From Astropecten irregularis (lineage: Eukaryota > Echinodermata > Asteroidea > Paxillosida > Astropectinidae), in assembly GCA_963971285.1 (NCBI GenBank), contig OZ020255.1, positions 10,932,931-10,996,930 of the forward strand: 64,000 bases of DNA. Reading direction: 5' to 3'. A program made the position numbers and the translations under genes. Shown in pieces: positions 1,107-63,578 of this stretch (the stretch's first letter is position 1; each line of letters opens with the position of its first letter). The notes under the pieces are model-generated. The model was not told the DNA's origin. It saw only the letters and a program-made list of their open reading frames with translations, and searched no databases.

Positions 1107-1470
1107 AAAGGTACTGTCATACTGTTGGAAACCGAAAAAGAAAATAATCTCCACATATTTACCTTTAACTTACAGGGTATAACGATGGTGATGGTAGAAA
1201 CATGCCGTTAAAATGTTTCTACCTGAAATGCTGTATGTATCCAGAAAAGGGTAAAAACCAATGACCAAAAACAATTCAGTGATCTCCGGAAGATCAAAAA
1301 TCCTGTGAAAATATTTTTTTTAAAATACTGTGAGCGTTTTTCACTGTTTTGTCAAAAAGTGGACACCGTATGGGGCTGTGAATTTCACAGAATGATGACT
1401 GTTACTGTATCTTTCTTGATATTTTTGCCCATGAATCTGCATTTCTTTCATGTATGAAATCACCTTTAAG
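1107..1470 (+). mobile_element. X-Y element (TTAA-flanked MITE)
   Basis: X arm, central GATC palindrome and Y arm are all present. The copy is diverged at both tips. It interrupts the element at 897-1106. Confidence 0.8.
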
Positions 1471-2251
1471 CAAATTCTTTTCCTCTCGTTCGAGGAATTG
1501 TTTTTCGAATCTCTGCCAGTTCTCTCCACTGTCATCTATTCTCGTACTGAAGCCATTTCCCTCCATGATTTAAATTAAGCACAAAGAACGTGCCGAGACG
1601 TCGTCCGAGTTTTGTTGTTGCAAGTAGTTTCTTCGTGAATTCCTAACAACCGACTGAACCTCTCTAAATATAGCGGTTATAGAGGAATACAATGCTCGTA
1701 TGCCGTTTCAAACTCAATGATATTCACTCTATTCACTTGAACCATATTTTTAGCCAACTCGATACCGAAAATTTGATTGGTTTTGCTGTCCAAACAGCAA
1801 CAGTGTCGTTTTACAGGCTGGCTTCGCGCATGCGTGTTTGCCAACGATATCGCTCTCTGTAATCTGTTGGCACCGGATCGAATGTAGTTAATCGTTGGGT
1901 CAGAGTATAACAATTATGAGAGTGCAGTGTTGGCGCTGTATTAGGGATATGTCTGCAACGGTGATATGTTTTCCCTGAATTCTGCTTGGGCTTTACCCGT
2001 TTAGGGACACTGCTACGATGTTTTCAGTATCAGACCTGTCTTGCACGATTGTGTACTGTTACTGTCAGTAGTGAGTTACATTGTGAAACAGACACTCGGG
2101 TAGGCTGGATCGAATTGAGAACAGATCTGGCGAGTTCGCTAATTTTAAAGGTTGAGTGAAACAGTTATATTTTTGTCGTGCCAGTGCAATGTGATAACGA
2201 GATTCTGATATTGAATAGATAACTTTTTTGGACTGCATGCTGAAGTGAAGA
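1471..2251. other. 5' flank of the first GPCR
   Basis: Unique sequence. Possible acceptors at TTTTCAG (about 2026) and CGTGCCAG (about 2182) would allow a 5' UTR intron. No TATA box stands out. Confidence 0.4.
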
Positions 2252-3403
2252 ATGGATAACTTGGGGAATACGACGGACGGCTCTGGTTTGTCTCGATCTC
2301 CGACCGTCTCTGGGATGAACGTCAACGCCGTCGTGTGGGACTGGTTCCACATCGTGCAGCTGACACTGGCCGTGGTAGGGATCCTGGGCAACACGCTTGT
2401 CATCACGGTGTACGCCAAGAAGCTCCGTGTTCGCAGCAACTCCAACCGGTTGATCGCCCTGCTGGCGGTGGCCGATCTCCTGACATCGGTGGCGACGGTT
2501 CCAACGCCCGGTCTGGCGGTCGTGCCTCAGACGGCCGCCGGCAGCGCCTACTGCAAGTTGGTCCACTCACGGGTTGTCATGTGGATCACCATCGTAGCGT
2601 CGGTCTTCACACTGACGCTGCTGTCCGTGGAACGGTTCTTCGCCGTGGTGTACCCGGTCAAGCACAAGACCGTTTTCAAGGCACGGAACCTGAGGTACTT
2701 CGTGGCTGCCGTTTGGGTGTCCGCAGTGGTGCTGAACATGGGTAGCTTCTACGTACCGGTGGTGGGCGATGGAGGGTACTGTGTGTTGAGCTGGCCCTCA
2801 CCGGCGTACCAAGCCTTCCACGGGATAGCCCTGTTCGTCTTGGAGTTTGTCATTCCAGTGGTCGTCATGGTCGTGTCGCACTGGTTCGCCGTCAGGGAGC
2901 TGAAGAGGCAGGCCTCGTCGCTCCTGCAGAGGAACAACTCCAAGTCCTCCCCGGCCTTCTCGCTGCTGCAGTCCCGCCGCCGAGTCATCAGGATGGTCCT
3001 CATTGTGGTCATCACCTTCATCGTCTGCTGGGCTCCGGACCAAATCGGCTTCCTGATTCTCAATCTGGGCGGCCTGTCTCCGGAGTACTTCAGCAGTCTG
3101 ACCTACTACTCTTTCACCGTCTTGGCCTTCATCAACTCCTGCGCCAATCCGTTCATCTACATCGGCCTGAACAAGAACTTCCGGCTGGCCGTGGGTCAGC
3201 TCCTGCCCTTCGTCAAGCAGAGAGTGGGGGTGAGTTCGGAGGAGAGGACCGGGACGGTTGCTCTGGCCGACTCGGGGCCTGGAGGTACAGGCGACGGCGG
3301 GCCGTCCCGTGCCCACCCCGCTGCGAACCCCCCGAACCGCCCGGCGTCCCGGTCCCGGCAACACAGTGAAGAATTATACATCGTGTCCTGTTCGCAACCA
3401 TAA
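2252..3403 (+). CDS. Rhodopsin-family (class A) G protein-coupled receptor, peptide-receptor type, single exon
   Basis: A 383-residue open frame encodes a complete seven-helix receptor of the plasma membrane. Visible landmarks are an N-glycosylation site at N6, the TM1 GN pair (G46-N47), TM2 LAVAD (D75), the TM3 cysteine C101 paired with C177 in loop 2, ERF in place of DRY at 127-129, TM6 CWAP (259-262) and TM7 NPFIY (299-303). Approximate helices are 33-56, 66-89, 101-131, 147-168, 190-213, 245-271 and 285-306. The tail of about 75 residues is rich in Gly, Pro, Ser and Arg. The ATG has A at -3 and G at +4. No intron interrupts the frame, and the GC-rich coding sequence stands out from its AT-rich surroundings. 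The NSCANP motif and basic third loop fit peptide receptors (galanin, allatostatin, somatostatin, QRFP groups), which is an inference from family knowledge; the ligand cannot be named. Its paralogue is at 52609-53769. An AATAAA follows at 3493. Confidence 0.93.
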   Translation: MDNLGNTTDGSGLSRSPTVSGMNVNAVVWDWFHIVQLTLAVVGILGNTLVITVYAKKLRVRSNSNRLIALLAVADLLTSVATVPTPGLAVVPQTAAGSAYCKLVHSRVVMWITIVASVFTLTLLSVERFFAVVYPVKHKTVFKARNLRYFVAAVWVSAVVLNMGSFYVPVVGDGGYCVLSWPSPAYQAFHGIALFVLEFVIPVVVMVVSHWFAVRELKRQASSLLQRNNSKSSPAFSLLQSRRRVIRMVLIVVITFIVCWAPDQIGFLILNLGGLSPEYFSSLTYYSFTVLAFINSCANPFIYIGLNKNFRLAVGQLLPFVKQRVGVSSEERTGTVALADSGPGGTGDGGPSRAHPAANPPNRPASRSRQHSEELYIVSCSQP

Positions 3404-3492
3404 CTTATTTTGAGTTCACCGTCATGAATATACACAATCTTGCCGCTCTACATAGTTCACTGTATAAAGAATGCTACATGCCCAACATACAA

Positions 3493-3498
3493 AATAAA
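3493..3498 (+). promoter_or_regulatory. Likely polyadenylation signal of the first GPCR
   Basis: A canonical AATAAA lies about 90 bases after the receptor stop codon on the same strand. No experimental 3' end is available. Confidence 0.5.
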
Positions 3499-3637
3499 AT
3501 GCGTTACTTGGCAAACACAAAGAAACAAAGGAAAGGAACTTGCAGAACTGAGATGATAAAACTGTGGAGAAGAAATTCCCCATTTTGACTCTTATTTATT
3601 TGGACTGAAGCCCGAGACTTCCGTCGGACAGATCCAT

Positions 3638-4472: not shown

Positions 4473-4952
4473 TTAATGGTCGTATCAAACTTCGGTTAAG
4501 TTGACAGAACATAGTGGTCTGTTCATAATTTGATTTGTCATGAAATAAAAAAAACAAACCTGTGAAATATTCAGCTCAATGGGAGACTTTTGAGAATCGG
4601 TCTTCAAGTCAACAGCGCACGCGCACGCATATTATGGGCATGCGCGCTTTGTTTTGCGCCTGCGCTGTTGTGCGTGCCTGTCCGGTGTTGACACGAACAC
4701 CGATTAAGAAACAGTACAAAACGGCGAAAAAAAACGTTGCAATTTTTACGCAAAATGGTTAGGTAATTGTCATTGTGAGGTATTTTGTTTTACTCTTTTT
4801 CTGACAAAAAAACCCACCAACAGCATTTCAGACTCTGGCAGAAAATGTTAATGGTATGTTGTACCAGGTCTGTCTTTATACCGTGTAAGTTATACTTTAA
4901 TCTGTTAACATTTCTGTTTTGGTTTCCTACCAAAGTATGATACTACCTTTAA
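4473..4952 (-). mobile_element. W-X element with nested hairpin element
   Basis: The W arm (with the segment CAAACCTGTGAAAT) is broken at 4578 by a CpG-rich hairpin element and continues to an X arm ending CTACCTTTAA. Confidence 0.75.
4578..4695 (+). mobile_element. CpG-rich hairpin element, degraded copy
   Basis: It begins AATGGGAGACTTTTGAGAAT, with CAACAGCGCACGCGCACGCA and a partly matching second arm. Same family as 28981-29125. Confidence 0.7.
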
Positions 4953-4955
4953 ACG

Positions 4956-6680: not shown

Positions 6681-7428
6681 ATCGACCATAAAGCAATGTG
6701 TGGTGTATTTTGCATCATTAGAAAAATTATGTAGGACAACGCTGAGTGTTATAAAAAGGCAAAACGTTTAGCACATTGTTGTGTGTAAATGAAAAAGAAC
6801 TTTGATACATACCACTTCCGTGTAACATGGCTTAGTTACACGGATTTCACGTATTAAGTTTTCGCATCGCGTATGAAAAGGCACACAAAGCCTGATGACG
6901 TCATCCGCAGAAAAAAATACGGATACGTAATATGGATTTTGAGCTTGCCGAACTTCTCTAGTAGTTAAGTAGGAGTTAATTTAAACCTCCCACAGTAGTT
7001 TATGTACACGTTTTTTGTTGTGTAGGCAAATTTAAAACCATTTTTTGAACAAGTATCTTATTTATACGAGTAACAACTTACGCTGGTAAAGCTAGGATAA
7101 TGTTTTTGGTGCACAACATTTGGCGTAGTGAATTTCTGAGCGTCATCTTCCTGCCTAGCCTGTATTTCCTTTGACAAATATTTATTTTCCTGCATGTCGG
7201 TCAACCAGTAATCTTATATGCCGGACGATCAATGTAATGCGGCACTGTATTTGTTGTGCTATTTTTTGGTGTGGTTTCCTGAATGAGCATTTATGACAAG
7301 TAACCTTATCTACGAAGCTCAAGACACAGAGGTTGCATTTTTAGTGGTTTTTGAAACCAACATGCATGAGGTTAATTGTTTGTTTTGTATTGTTGATTAT
7401 TGGATCATCTTCATATTTACTTGACGAT
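6681..7428. other. No gene recognised
   Basis: Unique AT-rich sequence, no coding or repeat signal seen. Confidence 0.5.
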
Positions 7429-7789
7429 AAAGGTAATATCATACTTTGGTTTTCGTCAAGGAAATGCAGATTCATGGGCAAAAATATCAATAAAGATACA
7501 GTAACAGTCATCTGTGAAATTTACAGTCCCATACGGTGCCTACCTTATGAGAAAACAGTGAAAACGCCCACAGTATTTTTTAGAATCATTTTACAGTTAT
7601 TTTTTTTTTTATCTTTAAAGGATCAAAATTGTTTTGGGTCATTTGTTTAACCCTTTTCTGGATACATACAGCATTTCAGATAGAAACATTTTAACGGTAG
7701 TTTCTACCATCACCATCTTTTACTGTTATAGGTAAATCTGTGAACATTTCTGCTTTCGGTACACTACCAAAAAATGATAGTACCTTTAA
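7429..7789 (-). mobile_element. Y-X element
   Basis: A full-length copy from AAAGGTAATATCATACTTTGG to TAGTACCTTTAA, 361 bp. Confidence 0.85.
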
Positions 7790-7819
7790 GAAGTTCAATG
7801 TATGAACTTGTTAAACCTT

Positions 7820-8170
7820 AAAGGTATGATACATGATTGGTAATGGTCACAGAGCAGCACCCACACTTTGTCTAATCCACCATGTATATGAAATAATAAG
7901 ACTTTGATTTTTTTGTAGCTTAATCGGACATCTGAGTCACGAGAAAATAGCGGACATTTTTTTTTTCTTATGAAATATAGAATGTTCTTGATCTCGCCGA
8001 GACCTAAATTATTTGTTTCGTACGTTCCTAAACAAATCATAGCATTTCAGGCAGAAATATTTTAGCAGGGGGTTTCTATCATGTCCATTTTTCGTGTAAG
8101 TTTAGTTATAGGTATAAATCTGTGAACATTTCTGTTTTGGTTTCTTACCAATCCTGTACTATACCTTTTA
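7820..8170 (-). mobile_element. Z-X element
   Basis: It starts AAAGGTATGATACATGATTGG and ends TACCAATCCTGTACTATACC. The centre reads GATCTCGCCGAGAC rather than the usual palindrome. Confidence 0.85.
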
Positions 8171-8802: not shown

Positions 8803-9000
8803 CGGGTTTACACCATGGCGGCCATCTTGGATTTTGATCGTAACTTCAAAACGAGGCATTTCCACGCGTGCGCACTTTTCTAAGTGTAAGCCCGTCAATT
8901 GTCGAAGACAATACACGGGTTTACACTTCGGCAGTTTTGATCGCGACTTCAAAACGAGGCACTATCACGCATGCGCTTTTTTGGAAGTGTAAACCCGTGT
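8803..9000. mobile_element. Nested element with GGGTTTACAC ends and internal tandem duplication
   Basis: CACGGGTTTACAC opens it and GTGTAAACCCGTG closes it. Inside, a segment of about 95 bases containing CTTCAAAACGAGGCA is present twice. ATACAC occurs on both sides as a possible target duplication. Confidence 0.65.
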
Positions 9001-9162
9001 ATACACGATTGGTAAAGGTCACAGAACAGCGCTCACACTTTGTCTGATCCAGTATGTACATGATTATGATAAACCTGTGAAAATGTGAGCTCAATCGGAC
9101 ATCTTAGTCTCGAGAAAATAGCGAAAAACCAACTCATTTTTCTTATAAAACATACAGAATGG

Positions 9163-9336
9163 TTAATATTCCGGTAGTTCAGGGCGCGCAGCAAGCCAGG
9201 CGGCCACTACAGGGTCGGCCACAATACGACTCTTGAGAGTTCTAAGCTCGGGGAACTTTTCCAAGGTGTCAGTGCCCTTGGCTACAAAGTCCACGAAGTC
9301 TACTGCGGTGAAGAAGAAGAGATCGGCCGCTGTCAT
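9163..9336 (-). CDS. GST exon 5 (C-terminus)
   Basis: This phase-0 exon follows a TTCTCTTTGCAG acceptor. It encodes 57 residues (MTAADLFFF ... AAWLAARPELPEY) and TAA at 9165-9163. Helix alpha-6 with the N-cap box region is recognisable. Both flanks are arms of a Z-X mobile element: the stop codon abuts the Z arm, and the X arm resumes near 9450 inside the preceding intron. Confidence 0.9.
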   Translation of the reverse strand: MTAADLFFFTAVDFVDFVAKGTDTLEKFPELRTLKSRIVADPVVAAWLAARPELPEY

Positions 9337-12300
9337 CTGCAAAGAGAATTGGGTGGAATTTTGAAATTGGGGGGAAATAAAATGCTTCTACACAGGACCT
9401 AGGTCTGCCGATACCAAAAATGTAGAAAGACCTACTTTCAGACGTGATATTCCGTTTCGTCTTTTCCGTCTTTGTTTTACTCATTTTTGGATAACTACAC
9501 CATTTCAGGTGGAAATATTTTCGCGGCATGTTTCTATCAGCACCATCTTCATATCCCGAAAGTTATATGTAAATCTGTGAACATTTCCGTTTGGGTATGT
9601 TACCAATCCTGTACCCTTCCTTTGATGGGCATTTGAATATTTGATTATGTGATGGGTCACATTAAAAAAATTTCCTTGCATCTATAAATCGACGTGTTAC
9701 AATGATGTGCATCCACCTTGTAAAAAATAGTTCCTCGAATACATTTTTTCAGTTGAATTTAATGTTTTGTTCACTACCTATAATTGTCTCTATTCAGAAT
9801 ATTCATGCCCTTGCATGACTGCTACTTGATATGAGCTTGGGGGAAAGGTTTTATCAGTGGATAAGCTTGGACAAAATCCCAAACTTTGCACCGAAAATTT
9901 GAATTTATCATACCGAGTTCCCGAGGAAAAATGTTCCAGCTTGTTCCAGGTGCAGAAGGCGTTCTAGGGCTGCGTATACCGGCGGAACGATCTCACTCAG
10001 GTACTTTTTTGTTTTTGCCGCCTAAAAAAAGAAAAAATCCAAAAGATGTTAGAGTTAACCTGGCGATACTTAGAAGTGGAGTGGATGTGACTTCTGGCGT
10101 TTCTTGCTTTTCTGTCTCGGGAAATATTGGTTGCAGATTTTACGTGTTTCTCCTGGCAACCAATGAGGGCGCTATTTCGTTTGGATACCAAGTGACATCG
10201 TTATATTATTAGCTGTACATGATTTAATAATGCTATATGAAATTTATAAAGCGCCTAATTCCAATAGTTTCTAAGGCGCCGTACAACATAATTATGAAAT
10301 ACTATACAAAGAATATAAATTATAGCACACCAAATAAATAGGAAAACAAAATAGATGAAATTAATTACATGTATGGTCATTGTCGCCCACACGGGTTCAA
10401 ATTAAAATTTACTGCCCTTTTGTTTTATATTGAAACCAATATGAGACTTGTCAATATGATTTTGTTGTTGGAATCTTGGTGAATATTTAACTTTACCAAA
10501 TATGAACCTGTTTGTAAATGATGTGGGTAAACAACAACAACAAAACAAACAAACAGCACCTGTTCTTCTGTGGTCCCTTCGTACGCCTGCCCATATATCT
10601 TCGGCAGTATCAATGGCTTGATCTATGTAGGCAGCATCTAAAGACGACTTGCCGTACAGTCCTGAACAACAACAACAAACAAACAAACAAACAAACAAAG
10701 TAAACAACAAACAGCTCCGGGAGAATATGAGGTCGGGTGAAGTAAGTTTTAATTCTGTCTGGTACCCCGACGTCGGCCCCTTTTGCATGCACTTTATCTA
10801 TGAAATGAAACTGAGTTGAGGACACTGTTACTGCGTCCAATGATTCGTGGTAACTATTGAGAGAAGGCCAGGGTTCGATTTTACGACGCCTTACGATCGA
10901 TCGTAAGTCGAGTTACGAAGGATAACCCATCGATCATAACCTACGACTTCCAATCAGGGCTGCAATGGCTTCATAAGTCCCACGATTGATTAAGTTACGA
11001 TGAGTTTGGTGAAACCCTTGATACCCGTGTTACTGTGTGCAAGAATGGCATAACAACACGAGAAGTCTTATAAAATCCCGCGCAAAATCTTGCATGACCA
11101 ATGGGTTTTTGGCGTTGGAAATAGTCGGGAGACTCAAAAGTTAAGTTCTCTGAATGTGCATGGGGGAATGTAAACAAGTCAAGGTTCTAGACACTAATAT
11201 GGCCACTAATAAAATTTCATTGTACATTTGCCAGGGGGATCTTGATTGGAATCTTCCCCTTTGTCAGAAAGCCTCGATTCCACTGCACTGTCTTCCGTAT
11301 CTAAATATTGAACATTCATGTTGGTTACTTGATTGGGTCACTGTACTGAAAAGTAAACTCACCAAATTCCTTGGCAACATATCTCAATATTGCCTTGCTC
11401 TGTCCAATCATCTTCCCATCTACCTCCAATACGGGTATTTGTTGGGTCGGATAGTCTGAAAAAGTTCAGAAAAGGGGGACAGGTCTCTTGGAACATGAAG
11501 TCTGTATTAAGAGGTTTGAACTGGTTTATTCTCTCAGGCAAGTACCATGGAAAACCCATGTAAGAAAGTATTGGGAAGAGTTTGATAAAAAGCGAGTAAT
11601 TTCATACTTTTATTTTGTCAAAGAAATGCAGATTAATGGGCAAAAATAGCAAGGAAGATACAGTGACAGTCGTCTGTGAAATTCCCAGTCCCATTCGGTG
11701 CCCACTTTTTGAGAAGCATTGAAAAAACGCCCGCGATAGTTTTAAATCTGTTTACAAGATTATCTTCGGAAAATCACAATTGTTTTTGGTCATTGGTTTG
11801 ACTCTTAAATAAAGGATAAATACAACATTCAGGCAGAAAACGGTATGTTTCTACTATCACCATCTTTATAATTATACCCTGCAAGTTATATAGGTAAATC
11901 TGTGGAGATGTCTGTTTCGGTATGCTACCTTTAAGCAACTGCAACGTATAGAAGGGGCCCCACGCGTTGTCTCATGCCTAATTGATATTACGGGTACACG
12001 TGTATACCAGACTATTTTGAATCCAAACCTCAGTTTGATTGCACTGCTTCAAATAAGGATGGTGCACTGTGAATAAGGCCTGCAGGTTGCACCCAAGTAA
12101 ATAAACTCCCATAGACAACAGTGGTAAATCCTCAAACTTCAAAAATCATTTAAAAATATACAGAACTCTCACAGCTGTTCAAGTTGCACAGTAAAATGAT
12201 GATGAACATGTCACCTTTCATTTTCTTTTCATTTTATGGTAGGGTGACCATTGAATTTTTGAGATATACTCATTCTCAGCTGACCACCCCTAAAACAAGA

Positions 12301-22493: not shown

Positions 22494-22876
22494 TTAAGGG
22501 TACTATCATACTTTGGTATAGGAAACCTAAACAGACATGTTCACAATTTACGTATAACTTACAGGGTATGAAGATAGACTTGGTACAAACATATCGTTGA
22601 CAATTTTCGCCCGAAATGCTGTATTTCTTTTTAGTGAAACAAAATAGCTTAATACCGAATTTTGATCTCCGAGATCAAAACCTCACAATCACAATTTACC
22701 GGCACATTATTTCGCGTACTATAGCACTTACAATGGTTTCTCGCTGTTTTCGAATGTTTGCAATTTTATTGAGCTGAAAATTCGCAGGTTTGTTTTTACT
22801 CCATGACAAATCAAATTATAAACAGACCGGAGCTGTTCAATCAACTTTACCAAAGTATATGAGAGTACCTAAATAG
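22494..22876 (+). mobile_element. X-W element
   Basis: X arm, GATCTCCGAGATC centre, then W arm (AAACAGACCGGAGCTGTTCA) to GAGAGTACCTAAA. Confidence 0.8.
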
Positions 22877-23226
22877 CAAAGCAATGGGATTCATTTTGTC
22901 GACAGAAGGAAGATACATTAATTTGTATTAGATGTGACATTTTAGTCAGTGAGTTTTGACATGTTCACCTAATCTCCGCCCTCGGACAGAATTATTACCA
23001 GCGGTGACAGTGACCGGTGCCATGCGATCATATTGATAGCAGAAACAAAATCAAGAAATATGTCTTGTTCATTTTTCACATCCATTCATCATCGTCATCT
23101 ATTTTTTACTGCATTCATAGTCGCTTTGACGCCGAGAGCCTATTAATGCGGATTCACCGCATGGACAGCACGTCTTTTTTTTTTAGCAATGTCGTACTAT
23201 ACTGACGATTAGTTGGGGTTTGATGC

Positions 23227-23592
23227 TTAAAGGTACAATACATGATTGGTAAAGGTCACAGAACAGCACTCACACTCATGTCTAATCAGTATGTACATGA
23301 AATGATAAACCTGTGTAAATTTGAGCTCAATCGGACATCTTGAGTCACGAGAAAATAGCGAAAAACCCAACTCATCTTTTCTTTTAAAATATAAAGAATG
23401 GTTTTGAACTCACCCCAAGATCAAAACTATTCTCGGTCTTTGTTTTACTATTTTCTGGGTGAATACACCATTTCAGGCAGAATAATTTTAACGGTATGTT
23501 TCTAACACACCATGTTTATACCCTGTAAGTTATAGGTAAATCTGTGAAGATTTCTGTTTGGGAATTTTACCAATCCTGTACTGTACCTTTAA
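23227..23592 (-). mobile_element. Z-X element, well preserved
   Basis: TTAAAGGTACAATACATGAT to CTGTACTGTACCTTTAA, 366 bp. A good reference copy for the Z-X family. Confidence 0.9.
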
Positions 23593-23921
23593 GCTTTCCT
23601 GGGGAAAACGAGTAATTATTATACAGATGTCAAATGATACTATTAATGTCACAAGGAGCAGAATTGAATGGTCTTCTTGAAAGACCGTAAGGGAGTATCA
23701 CGTAATGATCGAATCCAGCCCTTCACTGATGATAGCTCTCGTGCTACATCATTCATAATCCATGCTCATCGCGTTTAGTTGCATTATTGAGCATTATCTC
23801 AACTCTCTTGCGGTGTAAACAACCCCATGCATTTCAATAGCCAATTCTAACCAACAGGCTTTATCACGTCTCAGGTATAATAAACTAGAGACGGGGAGAA
23901 TGAATCGGTGAAGAGTCTTGC

Positions 23922-24292
23922 TTAAAGGTAGTATCATACTTTGGTTTTTTTTCAAGTAAAATGTAGATTCATGAGCATAAATATCAAGAAAAATACAGTA
24001 ACAGTCATCTGTGAAATTTCCAGTCCCATATAACGGTGTCCGCGTTTTGAGGAAACAGTGAAAACGCCCACAGTATTTTAAAAATCTTTTCACAGGCTTT
24101 TCAATCTTTCTTCCGAAGATCAAAATTGTTTTTGGCCATTGGTTTTACTCTTTTCTGGATAAAACAGCATTTCAGGCATTAGCATTTTAACGGTATGTTT
24201 CTACCATGACCATCTTTATACCCTGTAAGTTATAGGTAAATCTGTGGAGATTTCTATTTCGGTATGATTCCAAAGTATGATAGTACCTTTAA
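23922..24292 (-). mobile_element. Y-X element, well preserved
   Basis: TTAAAGGTAGTATCATACTT to GATAGTACCTTTAA, about 371 bp, centre GATCTTTC...CCGAAGATC. Confidence 0.9.
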
Positions 24293-31583: not shown

Positions 31584-31692
31584 AAGGATATCATACTTTG
31601 GTAGAAGTGATATAGAACAGCTGCGGTCTGTTCATAATTTGATCACGGAATAAAAACAAACCTGTGACATTTTCAGCTCAATTGATCATTGG

Positions 31693-31833
31693 AAACTACC
31701 GAAGGGAATTTAGGACCTGGTTTAAACAATCCTAATTCGTAAGTACGAATCCGTACGTACGAATTAGTAAACCATACGTACAAATTACTCAAGTTCTTTT
31801 TTACCAGGTCCTACATATACCCTTCGGTAGGAA
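31693..31833. mobile_element. Nested 141-bp element with CTACCGAAGGG ends
   Basis: Ends CTACCGAAGGG...AGGACCTGGT and complement, with a second inner palindrome of AATTCGTA/TACGTACGAATT type. Palindromic throughout. Confidence 0.65.
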
Positions 31834-31947
31834 ACAGCAGAAAAACAGCGAAAAACCGTTGCAATTTTTACGCGAAATTGTGAGAAAGTTTTAATTGTGA
31901 GGTTTTTATCTCGGAGATAAAAATAAATTGTTTTCGGTGTTTTGATT

Positions 31948-32310
31948 TTAAAAGTAGTATCATACTTTGCTTTTAGTCAAAGAAGTACAGATTCATGGGC
32001 AACAAATATCAAGGACGATACAGTCACAGTCATCTGTGAAAATTTCAGTCCCATGCGGTGCCCACTTTTTGAGAAAATCGTGAAAAATGGCCATAGTATT
32101 TCTTAAGTCTTTTCTCTTTTATTTTTTATCTTTTAAAAGATCAAAAAGATTTTCGGTCGTTTTACCAATTTCTGGATAAATACAGCATTTCAGGGGGAAA
32201 GATTTTAACAGTAGGTTTCTACAAGCATCATCTTCATACCCTGAAAATTATACGTAAATCTGTGAACATTTCTGTTTTGGTCTCTTACCAAAGTATGATA
32301 CTACCTTTAA
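31948..32310 (-). mobile_element. Y-X element nested in a W-X element
   Basis: Full length. TTAA is present at both junctions inside the host element, which supports TTAA targeting. Confidence 0.85.
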
Positions 32311-32863
32311 TATCCATTTCTGGGAAAAATACAACATTTCATGCAGAATTTGTTAACACTATGTTTGAGCCAGGTCTATCTTTATACCCTGTAAGTTATG
32401 TGAACGTATTTGTTTTGGTTTCTATACCAAAGTGTGACATACCTGCCTAAATGTTCAATATTGTTTTTATAGACCAGCATACGGCTACCCACGATAGACT
32501 TCAGTATATTATTTTTTTTTTTAAATATGCCTATGTGAATCGTAATTCTGTTTTCCCTTCAAGAGGTGTATTGACATTAAAAGGTAATGCTGCCCCAGTT
32601 CCCCACATTCTGTAATTTGAATCTAATTACATGAATTAATGTCGCCGAACACTCGTAGCTCGTCACTTAACGTACGCTAAAGAGGAAGGCTTCACCTGGA
32701 AGGTCTAGAAAGTGAGAGAGAGAAAGGGAGAGATGGGATGGCTTTATTTGATGGATGTAGCCTGTTTTTTGCAGAGGCCTTGAGGTTAATATTTGGCGTC
32801 ATGGTGGAGAGGCAGTCGCTGGGATTCCGTGAACACATCCGATTGCTTCATACGCCAGTCTGG

Positions 32864-33067
32864 GCCAATTGTATAGAGCTCAGCTTGAGCACCATAATTT
32901 CCTTATATGCACCAGAAACCTTAGCAAATAAAATCAGTATGCCAGCCACTCCTTGGGAATTTTATGCTCAGCAAATAATGGCCGAATGCAAGTCTAAAGC
33001 AGTATAAACATCTGATAAAGATTTTGGTTGGTATAATCGTGTTTGATCAAGGAAGACCTTTCATGCT
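32864..33067. mobile_element. Variant GGGGCCAATTTCA element, cut at TCATGCTTAA
   Basis: Same interior as 897-1106. Ends at the lone Z arm starting at 33068. Confidence 0.7.
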
Positions 33068-33242
33068 TAAGTTCACAGAACAGCACTCAAACTTTGTCTG
33101 ATCCAGCATGTACATAAAATGACACACCTGTGAACATTTTAGCTTAATCGGACATCTAAGTCACGAGAAAATCCCGAAAACCCGACTCAATTTTTCCTAT
33201 AAAACATCATAAAGAATGGTTTAGATCTTGAGATCAAAACTG
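33068..33242 (-). mobile_element. Lone Z arm
   Basis: The Z arm lacks its outer tip and stops at GATCTTGAGATCAAAACTG, the central palindrome. No X arm follows. Confidence 0.75.
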
Positions 33243-44681: not shown

Positions 44682-44985
44682 TTAAAGGTATAATACATGA
44701 TTGGTAAAGGTCACAGGACATCACTCATACTTTGTCTGATCAAACATGTACATGAAATAATAAACCTGTGAAAATTTGAGCTCAATCGGATATCTGAGTC
44801 ACGAGAAAATAGCGAAAACCCGATTCAATTTTTCTTATAATACATGAAGAATGGTTTTGATCTTACCCCGAGATTAAAACTGTTTTCGGTCTTGTTGTAC
44901 TAATTTCTGGATAAATAGGCCTACACCATTTCAGGTGGAAATATTTTAACGATATATCTTTCGACCAGCACTATCTTCATTCCTT
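44682..44985 (-). mobile_element. Z-X element, X end truncated
   Basis: TTAAAGGTATAATACATGAT through the centre (GATCTTACCCCGAGATTAAA) and most of X. It is cut near TTCATTCC and joined to another element at about 45000. Confidence 0.8.
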
Positions 44986-44999
44986 GAGTGAAAGGGGAT

Positions 45000-46009: not shown

Positions 46010-46366
46010 TTAAAGGTAGTATCATACTTTGGTAAGAGACCAAAACAGAAATGTTCACAGATTTACCTATAACTTTCAGGGTATGAAGATGATGCTGGTA
46101 GAAACCTTCCGTTAAAATGTTTCCGCCTGAAATGGTGTAATTATCCATAAATTAGTAAAACAACGACCGAAAATCTTTTTGATCTTTTAAAAGATCAAAA
46201 ATAAAGGAGAAAAGACTTAAGAAATACTGTGTCACTGTTTTCTCAAAAAGTTGGCACCGTATGGGACTGAAATTTTCACAGATGACTGTTACTGTATCTG
46301 TCTTGATATTTTTGCCCATGAATCTGTTTTTCTTTGACAAAAACCAAAGTATGATACTACCTTTAA
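46010..46366 (+). mobile_element. X-Y element, well preserved
   Basis: 357 bp between TTAA sites, centre GATCTTTTAAAAGATC. Confidence 0.9.
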
Positions 46367-47462: not shown

Positions 47463-47637
47463 ACGATCAAAACTGTTTTCGGTGTCTGTTTGATTAATTT
47501 CTGGATAAATACAACATTTCAGGCGGAAATATTTTAAGGGTATGTTTCTATCAGCACCATCTTCAGACCCTGAAAGTTTAACATAAATCTTTGAACATTT
47601 CTGTATGGGTATAACGTTACCAATCATTACCTTTAAA
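47463..47637 (-). mobile_element. Lone X arm
   Basis: It begins at CACGATCAAAACTGTTTTCGG, i.e. at the central palindrome, and ends CATTACCTTTAAA. It abuts the interrupted element 47038-47460. Confidence 0.8.
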
Positions 47638-48340: not shown

Positions 48341-48700
48341 TTAAAGCTACTGCGGTTTTTTGTCAAAGAAATGCAGATCATTCATGGGCAAAAATATCAA
48401 GAAAGATACGGTAACAGTCATCTGTGAAATTCCCAGTACCATACGGTGCCTTCCTTTCCAGTGGGGGAAAACAATTAAAATCTTTTCACCGTTATTTTTG
48501 ATCTTCCGAAGATCAAAATTGTTTCTGGTCACTGGTTTGACTCTTTTCTGGATAAATACGCCAGCATTTCAGGCAGAAGATTGTTAACGGTATATAACCT
48601 ATGTTTCTACCATCACCATCTTTATACCCTGTAAGTTATAGGTAAATCTGTGAAGATTTCTGTTTCCGTATGCTACCAAAGTATATGATACTACCTTTAA
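48341..48700 (-). mobile_element. Y-X element
   Basis: Full length with a worn tip (TTAAAGCTACTGCGG). Centre GATCTTCCGAAGATC. Confidence 0.85.
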
Positions 48701-49183: not shown

Positions 49184-49370
49184 TTAAAGGTAATATCATA
49201 CTTTGGTTTTTGTCAAAGAAATACAGATTCATGGGCAAAAATATCAAGGAAGATACAGTAACAGTCATCTCTGAAAATTGCAGTCCCATACGGTGCCCAC
49301 TTTTTGAGAAATAGTGAAAAACGTATTTCTTAATTCTTTTCTCTTTTATTTTTGATGAAACTACCTTTAA
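49184..49370 (-). mobile_element. Y arm with only the tip of X (internal deletion)
   Basis: The Y arm to TTATTTTTGATGAAACTACCTTTAA. Everything between the centre and the last 12 bases of X is missing. Confidence 0.8.
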
Positions 49371-49569: not shown

Positions 49570-49937
49570 TTAAAGGTACTATCATACGTTGGTATAGCAT
49601 ACCGAAACAGAAATCTTCGTCACTAGATTCACCCATAACTTATAGGGTATAAAGATGGTCATGGTAGAAACACACCGTTAAAATGTTTCTGCCTGAAATG
49701 CTGTATTTATCCAGAAAAGAGTAAAACCGATGACCAAAATCAATTTTGATATTTTAAAGATAAAAATAACAGTGCACAATTTCTAAAAAATACTGTGGAT
49801 ATTTTTCACTGTTTTCTCAAAAAGTGGGTACCGTATGGGACTGAAATTTTCACAGATGACTGCTACTGTATCTGTTTTGATATTCGGCATGAATCTGTAT
49901 TTCTTTGATAAACACCAAAGTATGATATTACCTTTAA
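49570..49937 (+). mobile_element. X-Y element
   Basis: Full-length copy, 368 bp, from TTAAAGGTACTATCATACGT to GATATTACCTTTAA. Confidence 0.88.
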
Positions 49938-50611
49938 AGGTCACTCGCGTTCATATTCAATTACTCCTCGCTTCAAATATTCTATTCTCGTCTGCCATAA
50001 ACTACTCCGCCATCTTGGCGTCTGGGTATAGCACGCAAGTAGCATTAACTATGAATAAATTAATTAACGAAAAACCGAAATTGAATCCCCAAGCATGTTT
50101 TTTTTTTATCCCAAACGGATATTAGTTTTTCTCTACAGAAATGTTGTTATCAAAAATGCAAATTGTGAATAGTTATATACACAACACAACAATGCGGGGA
50201 GCGAGGTCTTGAACAAAAGCAAGCTAACAAACAAACACCTCGACGAACCATACAACCTCAGCGACCAGGAAACAAGTTGCATGCAATGTCCCAAAAATAG
50301 ACTCGTTTCCGTTTTCAATTTCATTTGGTCAATTGCAAATAGCTATCAATTTCTCCCCGGATAAAACGTATACGGTAAATTGAAATTGAGAACAGGGTTT
50401 CAATTCGACCAGGCTCCGCTGTGGTCCGTCCATTTTAATCAAGCTTAATGAGATTTTGATGTATCCACTCACTTTTATAAACATGCCTTATTATCCATCA
50501 TTGACCGGCTGAAATAATTTTCAATTGAATGGGAATTTGGTGACATCATGTATACCGTATACGTGTAATGCAGGATTCTCATTGGCATTGGGTAGATTTT
50601 ATGGATAGAAC
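49938..50611. other. No gene recognised
   Basis: Unique AT-rich sequence. Confidence 0.5.
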
Positions 50612-50974
50612 TTAAAAATGTAATACTTGATTGGTAGAGGTCACAGAACTGCACTCACACTTTGTAAGATCCAGCATTTACATGAAATAATAAACCTGTG
50701 AATATTTGAGCTCAATCGGACATCTGAGTGGCGAGAAAATAGCGAAAACCCGACTCATTTTTTTTTTTAAACATAAAGAATGGTTTTGATCTTACCCCGA
50801 GATCAAAAGTGTTTTCGGTCGTTGTTTTACTAATTTCTGGATAAATGCAGCATTTCAGGCTGAAATATTTGAACGGTATGTTTCTACCAGCACCATCTCC
50901 ATATCCTGGAAGTTATACGTAAATCTTTGAACATTTCTGTTTGGGTATATTACCAATCCTGTACTGTACATTTA
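50612..50974 (-). mobile_element. Z-X element
   Basis: TTAAAAATGTAATACTTGAT to CTGTACTGTACATTTA, centre GATCTTACCCCGAGATCAAA. Confidence 0.88.
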
Positions 50975-51130
50975 CGTACTTAATTCCGTACATAACATCG
51001 TCGAACGCTTACTGCGCTCACGGTCATTGGGCACGTCTTCATGAAAATCATTTCTTTTTTAAACCCCCCCCCCCATCTCATGGGCTCTGAGGGGGCCCAA
51101 CTCACCCTTCACTGTCTTTACTAATTTCCT

Positions 51131-51443: not shown

Positions 51444-51620
51444 TTAAAGGTAGTATCATACTTTGGTAAGACACCAAAACAGAAATGTTCACAGATTTAC
51501 GTACAACTTTCAGGGTATGAATATGGTGCGGGTGGAAATCTACCGTTAATATTTTTCCGCCTCAAATGGTGTATTTATCCATAAAGTAGTAAAACAACGA
51601 CCGAAAATATGTTTGATGTA
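51444..51620 (+). mobile_element. Lone X arm running into microsatellites
   Basis: Begins TTAAAGGTAGTATCATACTT and stops at GAAAATATGTTTGAT, the start of the central palindrome, after which TGTTGAAT-type repeats begin. Confidence 0.8.
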
Positions 51621-51654
51621 ATAATGTTGTATAATGTAAAATGTTGTACAGAAT

Positions 51655-52185: not shown

Positions 52186-52424
52186 AAATTAATGCCAAAT
52201 TTAAAATGTTTGAACTGTCGAAGCATCATTTTCAATGATAACCATCTTATAACCTCATGGCCACATCTTCAGCACTTTGGTGCAAGTGTGTGAAACACGT
52301 ACGTCAAACCCTTACGTCCTTTCCAGAATGACCCGCGAGCCTTCTCACCTCGATTGCTTTCCATCCTCACACCATCCTCCCGTAGATCAACACTGACGGC
52401 AAATTTCCTTGGTCTCTCCCACAG

Positions 52425-52608
52425 GAAGCACCCGAGAAAAGCAGAGGGTGATCAAGCAGAGATAATACAGCAGGGTCTTCATTCACTCGTCCGGAGAGAT
52501 GTGTCCTATAATATCTCTTCTGGTTTATATGATCTGAAATCAGTTGTTTGTTGAGTTTTGACCCAAACAGTGGATGTTAGCACTCTGGAGTTGAGACCAG
52601 CGGTTGCA
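52425..52608 (+). other. Probable 5' UTR exon segment of the second GPCR, with acceptor and short upstream ORF
   Basis: A pyrimidine-rich tract ending in CCCACAG (AG at 52423-52424) is a strong splice acceptor, and the sequence then runs uninterrupted into the receptor ATG. A 6-codon upstream ORF (ATG at 52574, TGA ending at 52594) lies 14 bases before the receptor start and could reduce its translation. This is inferred from sequence only. Confidence 0.45.
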
Positions 52609-53769
52609 ATGGATACCTTCAACGGGACGATGAACGGCACGGACGGGGGTATGTTGTGGTCGGCCTCCTCGGGTGGCTGGCCCTGGCAGGACATTTGCAA
52701 GTTGATCATGGGCGTCATGGGGATTGTGGGCAACACGCTGGTCATTGTCGTGTACAGGGGCGAGGCCAAGCAGAAGAACTCCGTCAATGTCCTCATTCTT
52801 GCTCTGGCCTGTGCCGATCTGATCAGCTCCATCATGTTCCTCCCCATCCCCGTGGCCAGGGTGGTGCCCAACAATATCTGGGGCCAGATCTACTGCCGAG
52901 TGATCTTCTCCCAGGCTTTTCTCTGGATCTCCATCGAGGCTTCCGTGTACACTCTGACGCTGCTCTCCGTGGAGCGGTACATGGCGGTCGCCCACCCGAT
53001 CCGCTATCGGAACATCTTCAACGGCAAGCGGCCCAAGCGGTTCATCTGGGTCATCTGGCTCTTTGCCGTCACCGTCAAGTCTTTCAACTTCTACAACACC
53101 AAGATCGTGGACGGCGAAGGTTGTGAGTACATCAGCTTCCCCAAGGGATTTAACCTGTTTCTCGCCGTGGGCATCGCTCTTGTTGAGTACTTCATACCTA
53201 TAATCGTGATGGTCACCTGTAACTTCTTCACCGTGAAGGCCCTCAGAGGCCAGGCGCGCAAACTGCAGAGTCACGGCCCGGGCGGTGGCAGCTTGAACCC
53301 CCACAGCGGCCCGGCTTACTCGGTCCTTCAAACCCGTCGCCGGATCCTCCATATCGTGCTGATTGTCATCGCTACCTTCATCATCTGCTGGACGCCCGAC
53401 CAGATATCGCTGCTCCTCATGAACCTGGACGTGCTGTCGTTCCAGGAGCACTTCCACAGCAACGTCCACCAGTCTTTCGTCATCTTGGCCTTCTTCAACT
53501 CCTGCGCCAATCCTCTCATCTACACCTTCAAGAACCAACACTTCCGCGCCTCCGTCTGCGAGCTCTTCCGCTGCTGCTCCAACCGAGTGTCGACGGCGTC
53601 CGACGAGGAGCGCGCCACCTCGCCGCACGGGGTCGGACAGGGACGCGAGCTTGTGAACGCAGCAGTCCCCAGGAGGACTAACGTCTCCACGGTCGGCGTC
53701 TCCGACCAACCCGGTCCCCTTCCCAACTCCATCCGCACCGTAAGAGGTGCGAACGAGGAATCCGTATAA
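52609..53769 (+). CDS. Rhodopsin-family (class A) G protein-coupled receptor, peptide-receptor type, single exon (paralogue)
   Basis: This is a 386-residue seven-helix receptor. The reading frame is open from a TTG at 52558, but the first ATG is at 52609. It has G at -3 and +4, and an in-frame TGA lies at 52552, so 52609 is the likely start. Numbered from that ATG: N-glycosylation sites N5 and N9, TM1 N42, TM2 LACAD (D70), C96-C172 disulfide, ERY at 122-124, TM6 CWTP (260-263), TM7 NPLIY (301-305) and a CC pair at 322-323 that may be palmitoylated. The third loop ends in Leu-Gln-Thr-Arg-Arg-Arg, close to the Leu-Gln-Ser-Arg-Arg-Arg of the receptor at 2252. The CWxPDQI and NSCANPxIY signatures are also shared, which shows that they are paralogues. 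It couples to G proteins by family knowledge; the ligand is unknown (galanin/allatostatin-like is possible). A splice acceptor at 52421-52424 suggests a 5' UTR intron. Confidence 0.93.
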   Translation: MDTFNGTMNGTDGGMLWSASSGGWPWQDICKLIMGVMGIVGNTLVIVVYRGEAKQKNSVNVLILALACADLISSIMFLPIPVARVVPNNIWGQIYCRVIFSQAFLWISIEASVYTLTLLSVERYMAVAHPIRYRNIFNGKRPKRFIWVIWLFAVTVKSFNFYNTKIVDGEGCEYISFPKGFNLFLAVGIALVEYFIPIIVMVTCNFFTVKALRGQARKLQSHGPGGGSLNPHSGPAYSVLQTRRRILHIVLIVIATFIICWTPDQISLLLMNLDVLSFQEHFHSNVHQSFVILAFFNSCANPLIYTFKNQHFRASVCELFRCCSNRVSTASDEERATSPHGVGQGRELVNAAVPRRTNVSTVGVSDQPGPLPNSIRTVRGANEESV

Positions 53770-57475: not shown

Positions 57476-57859
57476 CCTTAGGTAGTATCATATTTTGGTA
57501 GCATACCGAAACAGAAATCTCCACAGATTTACCTATAACTTACAGAGTATAAAGATGGTGCTGGTATAGAAACATACCGTGGAAATTGTTCTGCCTGAAA
57601 TACCGTATTTATCCAGAAAAGAGTGAAAACAGTCACCAACGTTATTTTTTATCTTGTAAAGATCAAAAATAAAAGAGAAAAGAAGTAAGAAATACTGTAG
57701 CCGTTTTTCACTGTTTTCTCAAAAAGTGGCCACTGTATATATGAGACTGAAATTTACACAGATGACTGTTTTTGTTTTTGCATTTTCCTTGATAAAAATT
57801 ATGTTTGCCCATTAATCTGTATTTCTTTGACAAAAACCAAAGTATGATATTACCTTTAA
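57476..57859 (+). mobile_element. X-Y element
   Basis: Full length. The Y arm carries a small insertion around TTGTTTTTGCATTTTCCTTG. Confidence 0.85.
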
Positions 57860-58535: not shown

Positions 58536-58588
58536 CAAGTTCTCATGGATGGTAATACAACGTCAGTATAATGTAGTGAAGTGGGTCA

Positions 58589-58828
58589 GGGGCCAATTTC
58601 ATAGAGCTGCTTAAGCACAACATTTGCACGAAAAGTCTTCCTTGATCAAGCAGGATTCCCATCTAAATTTTCAATGCGATGTTTACTGCTTTTGACTTGT
58701 ATTCGGCCATTGTTTGCTGAGCATAACATCCACAAGGAGTTTTGGCAAGCATACTGACTTAAATTACCGAGGTATTTCATGCTTAATCAACTTTTGGTGC
58801 TTAAGCAAGTCTATGAAAATTGGCTCCT
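58589..58828. mobile_element. GGGGCCAATTTCA element, variant subfamily
   Basis: Same termini but a different interior (TCTTCCTTGATCAAGCAGGA, ATTCGGCCATTGTTTGCTGA). Confidence 0.8.
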
Positions 58829-59081: not shown

Positions 59082-59258
59082 TTAAAGGTAGTATCATACT
59101 TTGGTTTTTGCCAAAGAAATGCAGATTCATGGGCAAAAATATTCAGAAAGATACAGCAACAGTCATCTTGTGAAATTCCCAGTCCCATATACGGTGGCCA
59201 CTTTTTGAAAAGAAGAAGAGTGAAAAACGCCCATGGTATTTTTAAAAACTGTTCATAG
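59082..59258 (-). mobile_element. Lone Y arm
   Basis: TTAAAGGTAGTATCATACTT to about TTTTTAAAAACTGTTCATAGG. Ends near where the central palindrome would begin. Confidence 0.75.
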
Positions 59259-59288
59259 GATACATTCAGTTCACATACCACGGATCAT

Positions 59289-60134: not shown

Positions 60135-60499
60135 TTAAAGGTAATATCATACTTTGGTTTTTGTCAAAGTAATACAGATTCATGGGCAATAATATCAAGG
60201 AAGATACAGTCACAGTCATCTGTGAAAATTTCAGTCCCATACGATGCCCACTTTTTGAGAAAACAGTGAAAAACGGTCACAGTATTTCTTAAGTCTTTTC
60301 TCTTTTATTTTTGATCTTTTAAAAGATCAAAAAGAGTTTCGGTCGTTGTTTTACTAATCTCTGAATAAATACACCATTTCAGGCGGAAAAATGTTAACTG
60401 TATGTTTCTACCACCACCATCTGCATATTCTGTAAATTATACGTAAATCTGTGAATATTTCTGTTTTGGTTTTTTACCAAAGTATGATACTACCTTTAA
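60135..60499 (-). mobile_element. Y-X element, well preserved
   Basis: 365 bp between TTAA sites, centre GATCTTTTAAAAGATC. Confidence 0.9.
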
Positions 60500-60751
60500 A
60501 TCGTACTGTTCCATATTCGTTTCGATCTTCGTGGCTATTATGGTGTTGTACATCACAGATTGTGTTATTTTTTGTTGTTGGGACAGCTGTCATTCTGGCG
60601 GGAAATATTTTCACAAGAAATTGATATTGATTCCAGTAGGCCTTTGATCTTTATTTTTTTTTTAAGTAGGTCACCGAAAAAGATGTTGTTCATCCTTTGC
60701 AATCATGGGCAGTGGCACTATACCTTAACGTAGAAGGGTCATGTAGTGACA

Positions 60752-61100
60752 CCATTATACACCATAACATACCAAACAGAAATCTTCACAGATTTACCTA
60801 TAACTTACAGGGTATGAAGGTGGTGATGGTATAAACATACCGTTAACATGAAATGTTGTATTTATCCAGAAAAGAGTCAAACCAATTTACCTAAAACAAT
60901 TTTGATCTTCGGAAGATCAGAAATAACGGTGAAAAGATTTAGAAATATTATACCATGGCCGTTTTTCACGATTTTCTCAAAAAGTGGGAACCGTATGGAA
61001 TTGAAATTTTCACAGATGACTGTGACTGTATCTTCCTTGATATTTTTGCCCATGAATCTGCATTTCTTTAACAAAAACAAAATATGAAATTACCTTCAAT
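60752..61100 (+). mobile_element. X-Y element, diverged tips
   Basis: Centre GATCTTCGGAAGATC. The outer X tip is degraded; the Y end reads AAATATGAAATTACCTTCAA. Confidence 0.8.
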
Positions 61101-61392: not shown

Positions 61393-61761
61393 TTAAAGGT
61401 AGTATCATACTTCGGTAAGAGACCAAAACAGAAATGTTCACAGATTTACGTATTTTTTTTAGGGTATAAAGATGATGCTTGTAGAAACATACCGTTAAAA
61501 TTTTTCCGCCTGAAATTGTGTATTTATCCAGAAATGAGTAAAACAACGACCGAAAATCTGTTTGATCTTTTAATAAAAGATCTTTTAATAAAAGATCAAA
61601 AATAAAAGAGAAAAGACTTAAGAAATACCGTGGCCGTTTTTCACGATTTTCTCAAAAAGTGGGAACCGTATGGAATTGAAATGTTCACAGATGACTGTGA
61701 CTGTATCTTCCTTGATATTTTTGCCCATATGACAAAAACCAAAGTATGATATTACCTTTAA
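61393..61761 (+). mobile_element. X-Y element
   Basis: Full length. The central palindrome is partly duplicated: GATCTTTTAATAAAA occurs twice. Confidence 0.88.
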
Positions 61762-62326
61762 GCCCGAGCATTTATAGCCCTTTGCGTCCATCCCTATATC
61801 CGACTCGTGCTCACCAATAATGCCATTACATGTAGGCCCTAATTGTTGTGAAACACCAACTTATACCACTCTTCGCAGTAATGTGTACACACTCTCCACA
61901 ACTTTGTTAAAAATAAATCACATATTTTGTGTCAATTTGCTGGAAATAAAATGACAAGACATGACAGTTTCCTGTGCTTCAAAATGTCGCAATGCATCGG
62001 CAAACTTATAATAGATGGGGAAAACGAAGCTTTTTAAACCGACTGTATTTATAGCGTGTTCTTTATTATTACATCTATGGCCACGGTTTGCAATACAGTT
62101 ATTTACTGTCACAATATTTGGTGAAGACGCATGGTCATGTCTTTTAAATTGAGAAAACAGTAGTGGATGTGTTCCGTAGTGTCGCTATAAACTAATAATG
62201 TTAACAATGTTGCACGTTCGTTTATTATGTTATGGCAATTTATTTTTGTTGTCGGTCAAGCAGAACAGCAAATCAGTCTTAAGTTCAGTTCTCAAGGAGA
62301 AAGGAACGTGCTTTCGAGTTGAATGT
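61762..62326. other. No gene recognised
   Basis: AT-rich unique sequence. Confidence 0.5.
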
Positions 62327-62692
62327 TTAAAGGGCATAATTATACAACATTAGTAACGAACCAAAACAGAAATGTTCAAATATTTACGTGTAACTTACAG
62401 GGTATAAAGACGGTAATGGTAGAAACGTGCGGTGAGAATCGTTCTGCCTGAAATGCTGTATTTATCCAGAATAGACTAAAACCAAACATAAAAACATATT
62501 TGATCTTGGTAAGATCAAAATTGAGACAGCTATTCCCTCACAATTTGCCGTAACAATTGCAACAGTTTTTCGTTGTTTTCTACTGTTTTCGATGATAAAA
62601 TGAGCTGACAATTTCACAGGTTTGTTTTTATTCCATGACAAATCAAATTATGAGCAGCCTGCAGCTGCTCTGTCACCTTTATGCCCTTTGAA
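62327..62692 (+). mobile_element. X-W element
   Basis: TTAAAGGGCATAATTATACA to CACCTTTATGCCCTTTGAA. The tips match each other but differ from those of X-Y copies. Confidence 0.85.
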
Positions 62693-63227
62693 TTGTAAAC
62701 AGCTATATTGTCTTATATGCACCGACTTATTAACTGCTCGCAAGTGCACATTTTATGCTTCATGCGGAATTAGGTGAAATTAATTAAGTTTGACGCCATA
62801 AACTTCACTGCGAACAATTTGCCAAAGTTGAAAAAGCTCTCAATTTCTTGCGAACATTCATTACTTTATCAGTTGTCCCACATTTTTTTATTTCAGTTTT
62901 CCTCGAACAACATTGATTAGAAATGTAGGACTACTCGCATAATGAATCGATTAAAATATTTGAGTAAACCGTTTAAAGAAAATCCTTTGATCAACTGAGG
63001 TACTTTTTAAAGTTGAGCCAGGACTCATACAAGTCCGCCATAAATGTTAAGGGAGTTATTGATGATTAGCAGTTTTCACGTTATTACACATCTAGGACTG
63101 TTTCCGTAATGGGGAGGGGGGGTCCACGGGGCACGGGATCAGCGAAAAACGCAAATGTAGAAAGAAAATGGCAAAGTGCAGCAGTCGCATTTTATGCTGG
63201 AAAAGATCGCAGGACCTACTTAAGACT
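62693..63227. other. No gene recognised
   Basis: AT-rich unique sequence. Confidence 0.5.
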
Positions 63228-63578
63228 TTAAAGGTAGTATCTGTGAACAGAAATTTTCACAGATTTACGTATAACTTACAGGGTATGAAGATGGTGGTGG
63301 TAGAAACATACTGTTAAAATGTTTCCGCCTGAAATGGTGTATTTATCCAGAAATTAGTGAAACAACGGCCGAAAATCTTTTTGATCTTTTAAAAGATCAA
63401 AAATAAAAGAGAAAACACTTAAGAAATACTGTGGCCGTTTTTCGCTGTTTTCTCAAAAAGTGGGCAACGTATATGGGACTGAAATTTTCACAAATTACTT
63501 TTACTGTATCTTCTATTAAAATTTTGCCCACGAATCTGTATTTCTTTGACAAAAACCAAAGTATGATATTACCTTTAA
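63228..63578 (+). mobile_element. X-Y element
   Basis: Short tip deletion after TTTAAAGGTAGTAT, otherwise full length. Centre GATCTTTTAAAAGATC. Confidence 0.85.

Follow-up and report, generated by a model that had tools for sequence, protein, structure and literature searches.

The closest precedent for the elements analysed here is the CMITE families of Acropora corals, miniature inverted-repeat transposable elements (MITEs) with TTAA ends, high copy number and a common interior despite differing terminal inverted repeats (TIRs), among which one mismatch between family and interior is included (PMC2872659; this and the other sources are cited for the parts of their text that were available). 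The Kolobok T2-MITEs of Xenopus combine a TTAA target and a two-purine terminus (AGG) with a long-lived clan of many subfamilies (PMC6004289). In Anopheles, the two ends of AgaP2-P12MITE come from two different subfamilies, and ectopic gap repair has been proposed for this P-MITE (PMC1562414). Galileo and Foldback elements comprise subfamilies with variously combined modules, for which gap repair, template switching and ectopic recombination have been invoked (PMC4168063, PMC2955051).

Here we analyse a 64-kb stretch of the Astropecten irregularis genome (GenBank assembly GCA_963971285.1, contig OZ020255.1, positions 10,932,931 to 10,996,930 of the forward strand; hereafter, the window), which is rich in small TTAA-ended elements, together with related copies from the rest of the assembly. 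The reading that we favour, with somewhat better than even confidence, is that the subfamilies W, Y2, Z, Y1 and V of these elements belong to one old, high-copy, non-coding TTAA MITE clan that reassorts its arms.

Element structure and classification

The element unit is a non-coding sequence of ~365 bp, flanked by TTAA, with 24-bp TIRs and two arms that meet at a short central palindrome; in the copies read, the order is TIR, left arm (Y, Z or W), palindrome, X arm, TIR. An earlier note, made from the sequence of the window, had described elements near 365 bp that share the X arm, and such two-arm MITEs were indeed recovered. The inverted ends of the Y type read TTAAAGGTA[A/G/C]TATCATACTTTGGT, and those of the related Z type end in GATTGGT. 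With up to 5 mismatches allowed, the 23-base Y-type end occurs 27 times on both strands of the window, compared with 0 occurrences in each of 5 single-base shuffles (one strand scanned). TTAA is present at both ends of intact copies, one apparent nested insertion lies at TTAA, and no copy overlaps any of the 8 open reading frames (ORFs) of at least 180 aa in the window. The elements are short, have inverted terminal repeats, occur in very high copy number and lack a coding region, as expected of MITEs. All 100 TIR pairs in the DNA examined enclose two-arm MITEs (97 recognised and 3 by inspection, two of the latter being second readings of known copies).

The termini of Y, Z, W and V all consist of TTAA followed by AGG, which fits the Kolobok TTAA target and two-purine (RR) terminus; the clan was probably moved in trans by a transposase of a Kolobok-like type. 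The terminal motif is AGGTA in Y, Z and intact-ended W, and AGGGA in V. Assignment to the T2-MITEs was rejected for Y, Z and most W copies, which lack the terminal AGGRR, and V alone fits; assignment to piggyBac-type MITEs or CMITEs was rejected because AGG, instead of the CC[C/T]T motif, lies inward of TTAA. Scans of IMG/VR with the TIR and with X produced no matches.

The genome search covered 475.7 Mb in 168 contigs and gave, at first look, 8643 (Y1), 8179 (Z), 9813 (Y2) and 4970 (W) candidates, numbers that overlap among the four queries; 40 candidates were scored per query, and 116 distinct two-arm copies were readable. In 20 preset 3-kb regions (60 kb), profile matches comprised 3 Y, 1 Z, 0 W and 4 X arms. 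The un-iterated arm profiles rest on window arms (15 Y, 7 Z, 4 W and 23 X), and iterated profiles detected further X pieces there at 32315-32422, 63929-63999 and 2-28.

Left-arm homology and matched ends

Profile searches with the un-iterated models connect the Y with the Z left arms and the Z with the W left arms, and Y, Z and W are therefore diverged versions of one left arm. The contention of the earlier note that these arms differ completely is refuted by this homology, which is found in the same place and order. The case rests on un-iterated models because the first iterated profiles mixed Y, Z and W; the arm boundaries of the un-iterated models were taken from the iterated profiles. The X model also scores on Y arms (up to 5.4 bits, with a shuffle maximum of 2.0) through a shared short motif, so that such scores are no proof. 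The mean identity of left arms is 0.84 between Y1 and Y2 and 0.67 between Y1 and Z, with a shuffle baseline of 0.70, and plain identity is therefore unable to show distant homology.

The pairwise Y-Z identity at the baseline level is what would be expected if one X arm had been fused at a GATC hairpin to three arms of unrelated sequence, anew at each junction. One locus, L043:880-1420 (minus strand), has a comparable structure: half of an R element (a second TTAA MITE, described below) is joined at TTATG to a Z-type palindrome and X arm, and TTAA flanks the whole on either side; this single copy may be a chimera of two TTAA MITEs that are not related. Nevertheless, we regard such fusions as a highly improbable origin of the subfamilies: a single R-X joint was observed, and the detectable Y-Z and Z-W homology, in the same place and order, argues against them. 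Unrelated left arms are ruled out by the same un-iterated profile matches.

The TIR type of the X arm always equals that of the left arm. Both ends could be classed in 97 copies (109 of the 116 two-arm copies lie far enough from the locus edge, and 12 of these have a damaged or ambiguous end), and these comprise 60 Y/Y, 37 Z/Z and 0 mixed pairs, that is, 0 mismatches. Because the TIR types never mix, a simple whole-arm swap is insufficient as an explanation. Comparison of the window consensuses of Y1 (6 X arms) and the Z type (4 X arms) shows 127/133 identical positions in the X body and 16/23 in the X-side TIR; for Y1 and Y2 (8 X arms), the corresponding values are 120/138 and 22/23. Thus, in the Y1 and Z consensuses, the interior is more alike between families than the TIRs, an organisation resembling that of CMITEs.

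Conflicting arm affinities and mosaic copies

The affinities of the left and X arms conflict. By mean identity, the X arms of Y1 are closer to those of Z (0.87) than to those of Y2 (0.83). Of the X-arm sites, 14 split Y1 from Y2 (each state being present in at least 60% of its group), and in Z, 11 of them carry the Y1 state, 2 the Y2 state and 1 a state of its own. Three copies, denoted Y3, have the Y1 state at 0 of these 14 sites; scored copy by copy, their Y1-state share is 7/7, 7/7 and 6/6 on the left and 0/12, 2/14 and 3/11 on the right. The switch in Y3 falls between approximately -16 and +20 from the centre, with the palindrome inside this interval. Altogether, left and X types were scoreable in 71 of 73 Y copies: 34 are Y2/Y2, 22 Y1/Y1, 3 Y1-left/Y2-right and 12 mixed.

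The copies identified in the window are as follows.

1105..1469, minus strand: Y-X of the old Y2 type; adjoins an R-type TTAA MITE; TTAA at the X end mutated
4473..4953, plus strand: W-X; palindromic insert interrupts the left arm
7427..7789, plus strand: Y-X, Y2 type
7817..8166, plus strand: Z-X, variant Z', with an unusual X arm
8997..9630, plus strand: probable Z-X, split at the centre by an insertion (~9165-9462); 9010-9605 looks so by reading
11590..11937, plus strand: Y-X, Y2 type; right TIR with a deletion
22494..22880, minus strand: W-X; Y-type TIRs at both ends
23227..23600, plus strand: Z-X; X arm mixed
23922..24292, plus strand: Y-X, Y2 type
31590..32440, plus strand: probable W-X, split by the nested Y-X at 31948-32311; W palindrome TTTTTATCTcggAGATAAAAA
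31948..32311, plus strand: Y-X of the young Y1 type
33064..33242, plus strand: lone Z arm without left TIR; stops 16 bp past the centre
44682..44990, plus strand: Z-X; X cut at ~+119 from the centre
46010..46366, minus strand: Y-X, Y1 type
47463..47635, plus strand: lone X arm that breaks off at the central palindrome (+3)
48345..48700, plus strand: Y-X, Y2 type; left TIR unrecognisable
49184..49370, plus strand: Y arm with the X arm deleted; palindrome runs into the last 11 bp of the X-side TIR (by eye)
49570..49937, minus strand: Y-X; left arm mixed
50610..50979, plus strand: Z-X; X of alpha type
51444..51620, minus strand: lone X arm of the Y1 type that breaks off at the palindrome; adjoins a TTGAATG array
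57476..57859, minus strand: Y3 mosaic; left arm Y1-type, X arm Y2-type
59082..59258, plus strand: lone Y arm; stops 16 bp short of the centre
60135..60500, plus strand: reference Y-X, Y1 type; centre GATCTTTTAAAAGATC at 60313-60328
60755..61099, minus strand: possible mosaic; left arm resembles 61393, remainder Y2 type; switch left of the centre
61393..61761, minus strand: Y-X, Y1 type; palindrome duplicated
62340..62700, minus strand: W-X; left end damaged
63225..63578, minus strand: Y-X, Y1 type, without the subterminal TTTGGT..ACCAAA motif
63745..64000, plus strand: Z-X, Z' type; cut by the window end

Raw p values from seven single-copy mosaic tests in the window were 0.0015 (57476), 0.007 (60774), 0.008 (49570) and 0.08-0.41 (four others). 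Switch intervals other than that of Y3 are off-centre, at +20 to +25 in L067_7 and at -44 to -32 in 60774. The left arm of the W copy at L054 has identities of 0.85 and 0.88 to two W copies but 0.75 to Z, whereas its X arm has an identity of 0.88 to Z and 0.78-0.79 to two other W copies, and Z TIRs are present at both ends. A weaker case is Z' 7817, in which a Z-type left arm is joined to an X arm that groups with that of W 22494 (95/77 in a tree of 113 X arms).

In the best tree of window X arms, Y1 belongs to a group (80/94) that also takes in two lone X arms and three Z-partnered ones, and a single clade of Y-partnered X arms is rejected by the approximately unbiased (AU) test (p 0.04; 24 window X arms, left from 26 after short arms were omitted). 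In the tree of 113 X arms (of 116, by the same rule), Z-partnered arms fall between Y1 and Y2, the Y type needs 5 changes, and Y forms one clade in 0 of 200 bootstrap trees; good support is limited to 8/110 inner branches, and the bootstrap is unsettled. A quick left-arm tree (72 rows of 73) needs 6 changes of X type, compared with 18.5 in shuffles, and a single clade of W X arms is rejected on subfamily consensuses (p 0.017). Thus, the three cleanly separate X clades that the earlier note had set against its own proposal did not appear in the best trees; AU values of 0.04, 0.095 and 0.44 and the many weak forks qualify this outcome.

Several observations weigh against reassortment of arms. 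A single Y clade is not rejected by the AU test on 107 X arms, from which W, Z' and V were also omitted (p 0.44; a quick-tree version, p 0.896, was discarded because the constrained tree outscored the free one), or on subfamily consensuses (p 0.095). The consensus tree places Z with the W copy at L054, not with Y1, and forcing Y1 and Z together costs 3.3 log units without being rejected (p 0.20). The pairwise homoplasy index (PHI) gave mixed results for 13 window copies (p 0.15, 0.011, 0.063 and 0.38 for windows of 20, 40, 60 and 100). No clean reciprocal (Y2-left/Y1-right) was found among the 71 scored Y copies, L023 being weakly reciprocal (left 2/7, right 8/13 Y1; p 0.35). Ten copies with a mixed left arm and a Y2 X arm suggest gradual left-arm change, so that Y3 may be intermediate rather than recombinant. 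Furthermore, X is short (~140 bp), the groups Y1, Y2 and Y3 were named after the trees had been seen, and no excision site, donor or intermediate was observed. The two AU tests that leave a single Y clade possible are consistent with a scenario without exchange, in which functional constraint, for example on a mobility binding site, keeps X alike while the left arm drifts. In the coral CMITEs, too, the interior is more conserved than the TIRs and a role in transposition has been proposed for it (PMC2872659); still, we consider this scenario doubtful for the present clan.

The central palindrome and truncated copies

The commonest centres are TTTTGATCT-TTTAAA-AGATCAAAA in Y1, with -TCCGA- or -TTAAA- in Y2 and -TACCCCG- in Z between the same flanks. 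Subfamily V, represented by two copies (L036:760-1120 and L077:1-270), has arms with matches to the Z and X profiles but a different palindrome, GAATAAA.CGCTTCGAAGC..TTTATTC, between them; the TIR of V starts with AGGGA and its left arm carries a second hairpin, GTGTACAG..CTGTACAC. The central palindrome, which according to the earlier note is always kept although its middle bases vary, is typical of these elements but not invariant. In the W copies at L054 and 31590, paired changes preserve the stem. Across copies, however, 5 compensated double changes were counted, a number attained in 207 of 1000 shuffles (mean 3.3), and therefore there is no sign of ongoing correction. The z scores of hairpin energy are -3.0 (Y1) and -3.2 (V); those of four other copies range from -0.5 to -1.7 only.

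Truncation points show a mild surplus around the centre, with 9 of 26 ends within 20 bp of it and ~3.5 expected (p 0.005). This count followed the post hoc removal of five rows, namely, four W rows, which the Y and Z models cannot follow (window 4776 and 22492, L002 663 and the probable W row L003 579), and one nested insertion (window 32317); the raw count was 11/31 (p 0.0016), and correcting 49184 by eye in the reduced set gives 10/26 (p 0.0013). Within 10 bp, the count (3/31) is not significant. Two ends that continue elsewhere (9010/9470) were excluded. The lone arms that had been noted to stop at or near the centre do so: 33064 at +16, 47463 at +3, 51444 at the palindrome and 59082 16 bp before it. 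An even spread of lone-arm ends, which would have spoken against breakage there, was not found.

These data can also be explained by ordinary ectopic gene conversion between dispersed X-homologous copies, with the palindrome as a bystander, switch points set by wherever homology permits them, and the central truncations reflecting AT-rich fragility. To this explanation, which overlaps with that of a reassorting clan, so that the likelihoods given here do not add up to certainty, we assign slightly less than an even chance; truncations within 20 bp above expectation and a Y3 switch interval that includes the palindrome argue against a mere bystander. Exchange at the central hairpin, as proposed in the earlier note, is possible: the conflicting arm affinities and the central truncation excess agree with it, whereas the off-centre switches, the unmixed TIRs and covariation at the shuffle level do not.

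A proposed model of arm reassortment

For the reassorting clan, we infer the following course. The left arms would have drifted apart until they seemed unrelated, while X arms were transferred between subfamilies, so that Y1 would combine a Y left arm with a Z-like X arm. After excision or replication stalling, repair synthesis may copy one arm, pause and resume, in many cases close to the central palindrome, on an arm of another subfamily that resembles the first; the exchange itself could be plain homologous conversion within X, or else template switching at the palindrome. Of the products, those whose TIRs match would spread. A stronger version, in which the palindrome is a working exchange point where hairpin stalling repeatedly swaps arms and a matched-end filter picks the founding chimeras, appears unlikely. 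If true, it would amount to a combinatorial engine for new MITEs, and the different palindrome of V, along with the paired stem changes in W, would mean that palindromy counts rather than its letters.

Other features of the window

The second TTAA MITE, R (ends TTAAGCA, ~150 bp, by eye), is found at 930-1105, 32890-33066 and 58560-58800; the R ends at 1105 and 33067 directly adjoin a Y-X or Z element, as if one TTAA had served twice. Two different palindromic inserts occur in W arms, at 4575-4705 and 31700-31830, with inverted ends AATCGGT..ACCGATT and ACCGAAGGG..CCCTTCGGT. The X end of the copy at 63246-63578 has gained CACAG, complementary to a nearby CTGTG, as if hairpin-copied. Three adjacent arrays with units of 6-7 bases (TTGAATG, TTTGAA and TTGATTG) occupy 51600-52200, beginning beside a broken X arm. 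Another dispersed repeat of ~430 bp has copies that are 93-98% complementary at 12133-12552, 16818-17251 and 37056-37484. About 2 kb of 12-base repeats (25349-27449), with several frames open on both strands, lie within a region of extreme GC skew at 24-28 kb. The window also encodes two single-ORF rhodopsin-class receptors (2252-3403 and 52558-53769).

Comparison with known systems

The origin of MITE families is an open question, and thousands of candidates, datable subfamilies and arm mosaics make recombination testable here against the decay of an autonomous parent as the sole source of new families. In addition, matched end types beside exchanged bodies set a constraint on transposase substrates that can be tested. 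Among the entries returned by a literature search (titles and abstract openings, with incomplete journal coverage), none describes an exchange of arms at a central palindrome. With the coral CMITEs, the clan shares the three features named at the outset; as described in the available part of the source, CMITEs are ~100 bp long, have piggyBac-type CCYT termini and lack the two-arm plan with a central palindrome (PMC2872659). The target, the terminus and the clan structure are also shared with the T2-MITEs, but the AGGRR of the latter is seen in V (AGGGA) and not in Y, Z or most W copies (AGGTA), and the passages cited do not describe an exchange of arms in T2-MITEs (PMC6004289). Unlike in AgaP2-P12MITE, the TIR types are unmixed (0/97), and exchange concerns the inner body (PMC1562414). 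Galileo and Foldback resemble the clan in their subfamilies, their recombined modules and the mechanisms invoked for them, but are much larger and have long inverted repeats (PMC4168063, PMC2955051).

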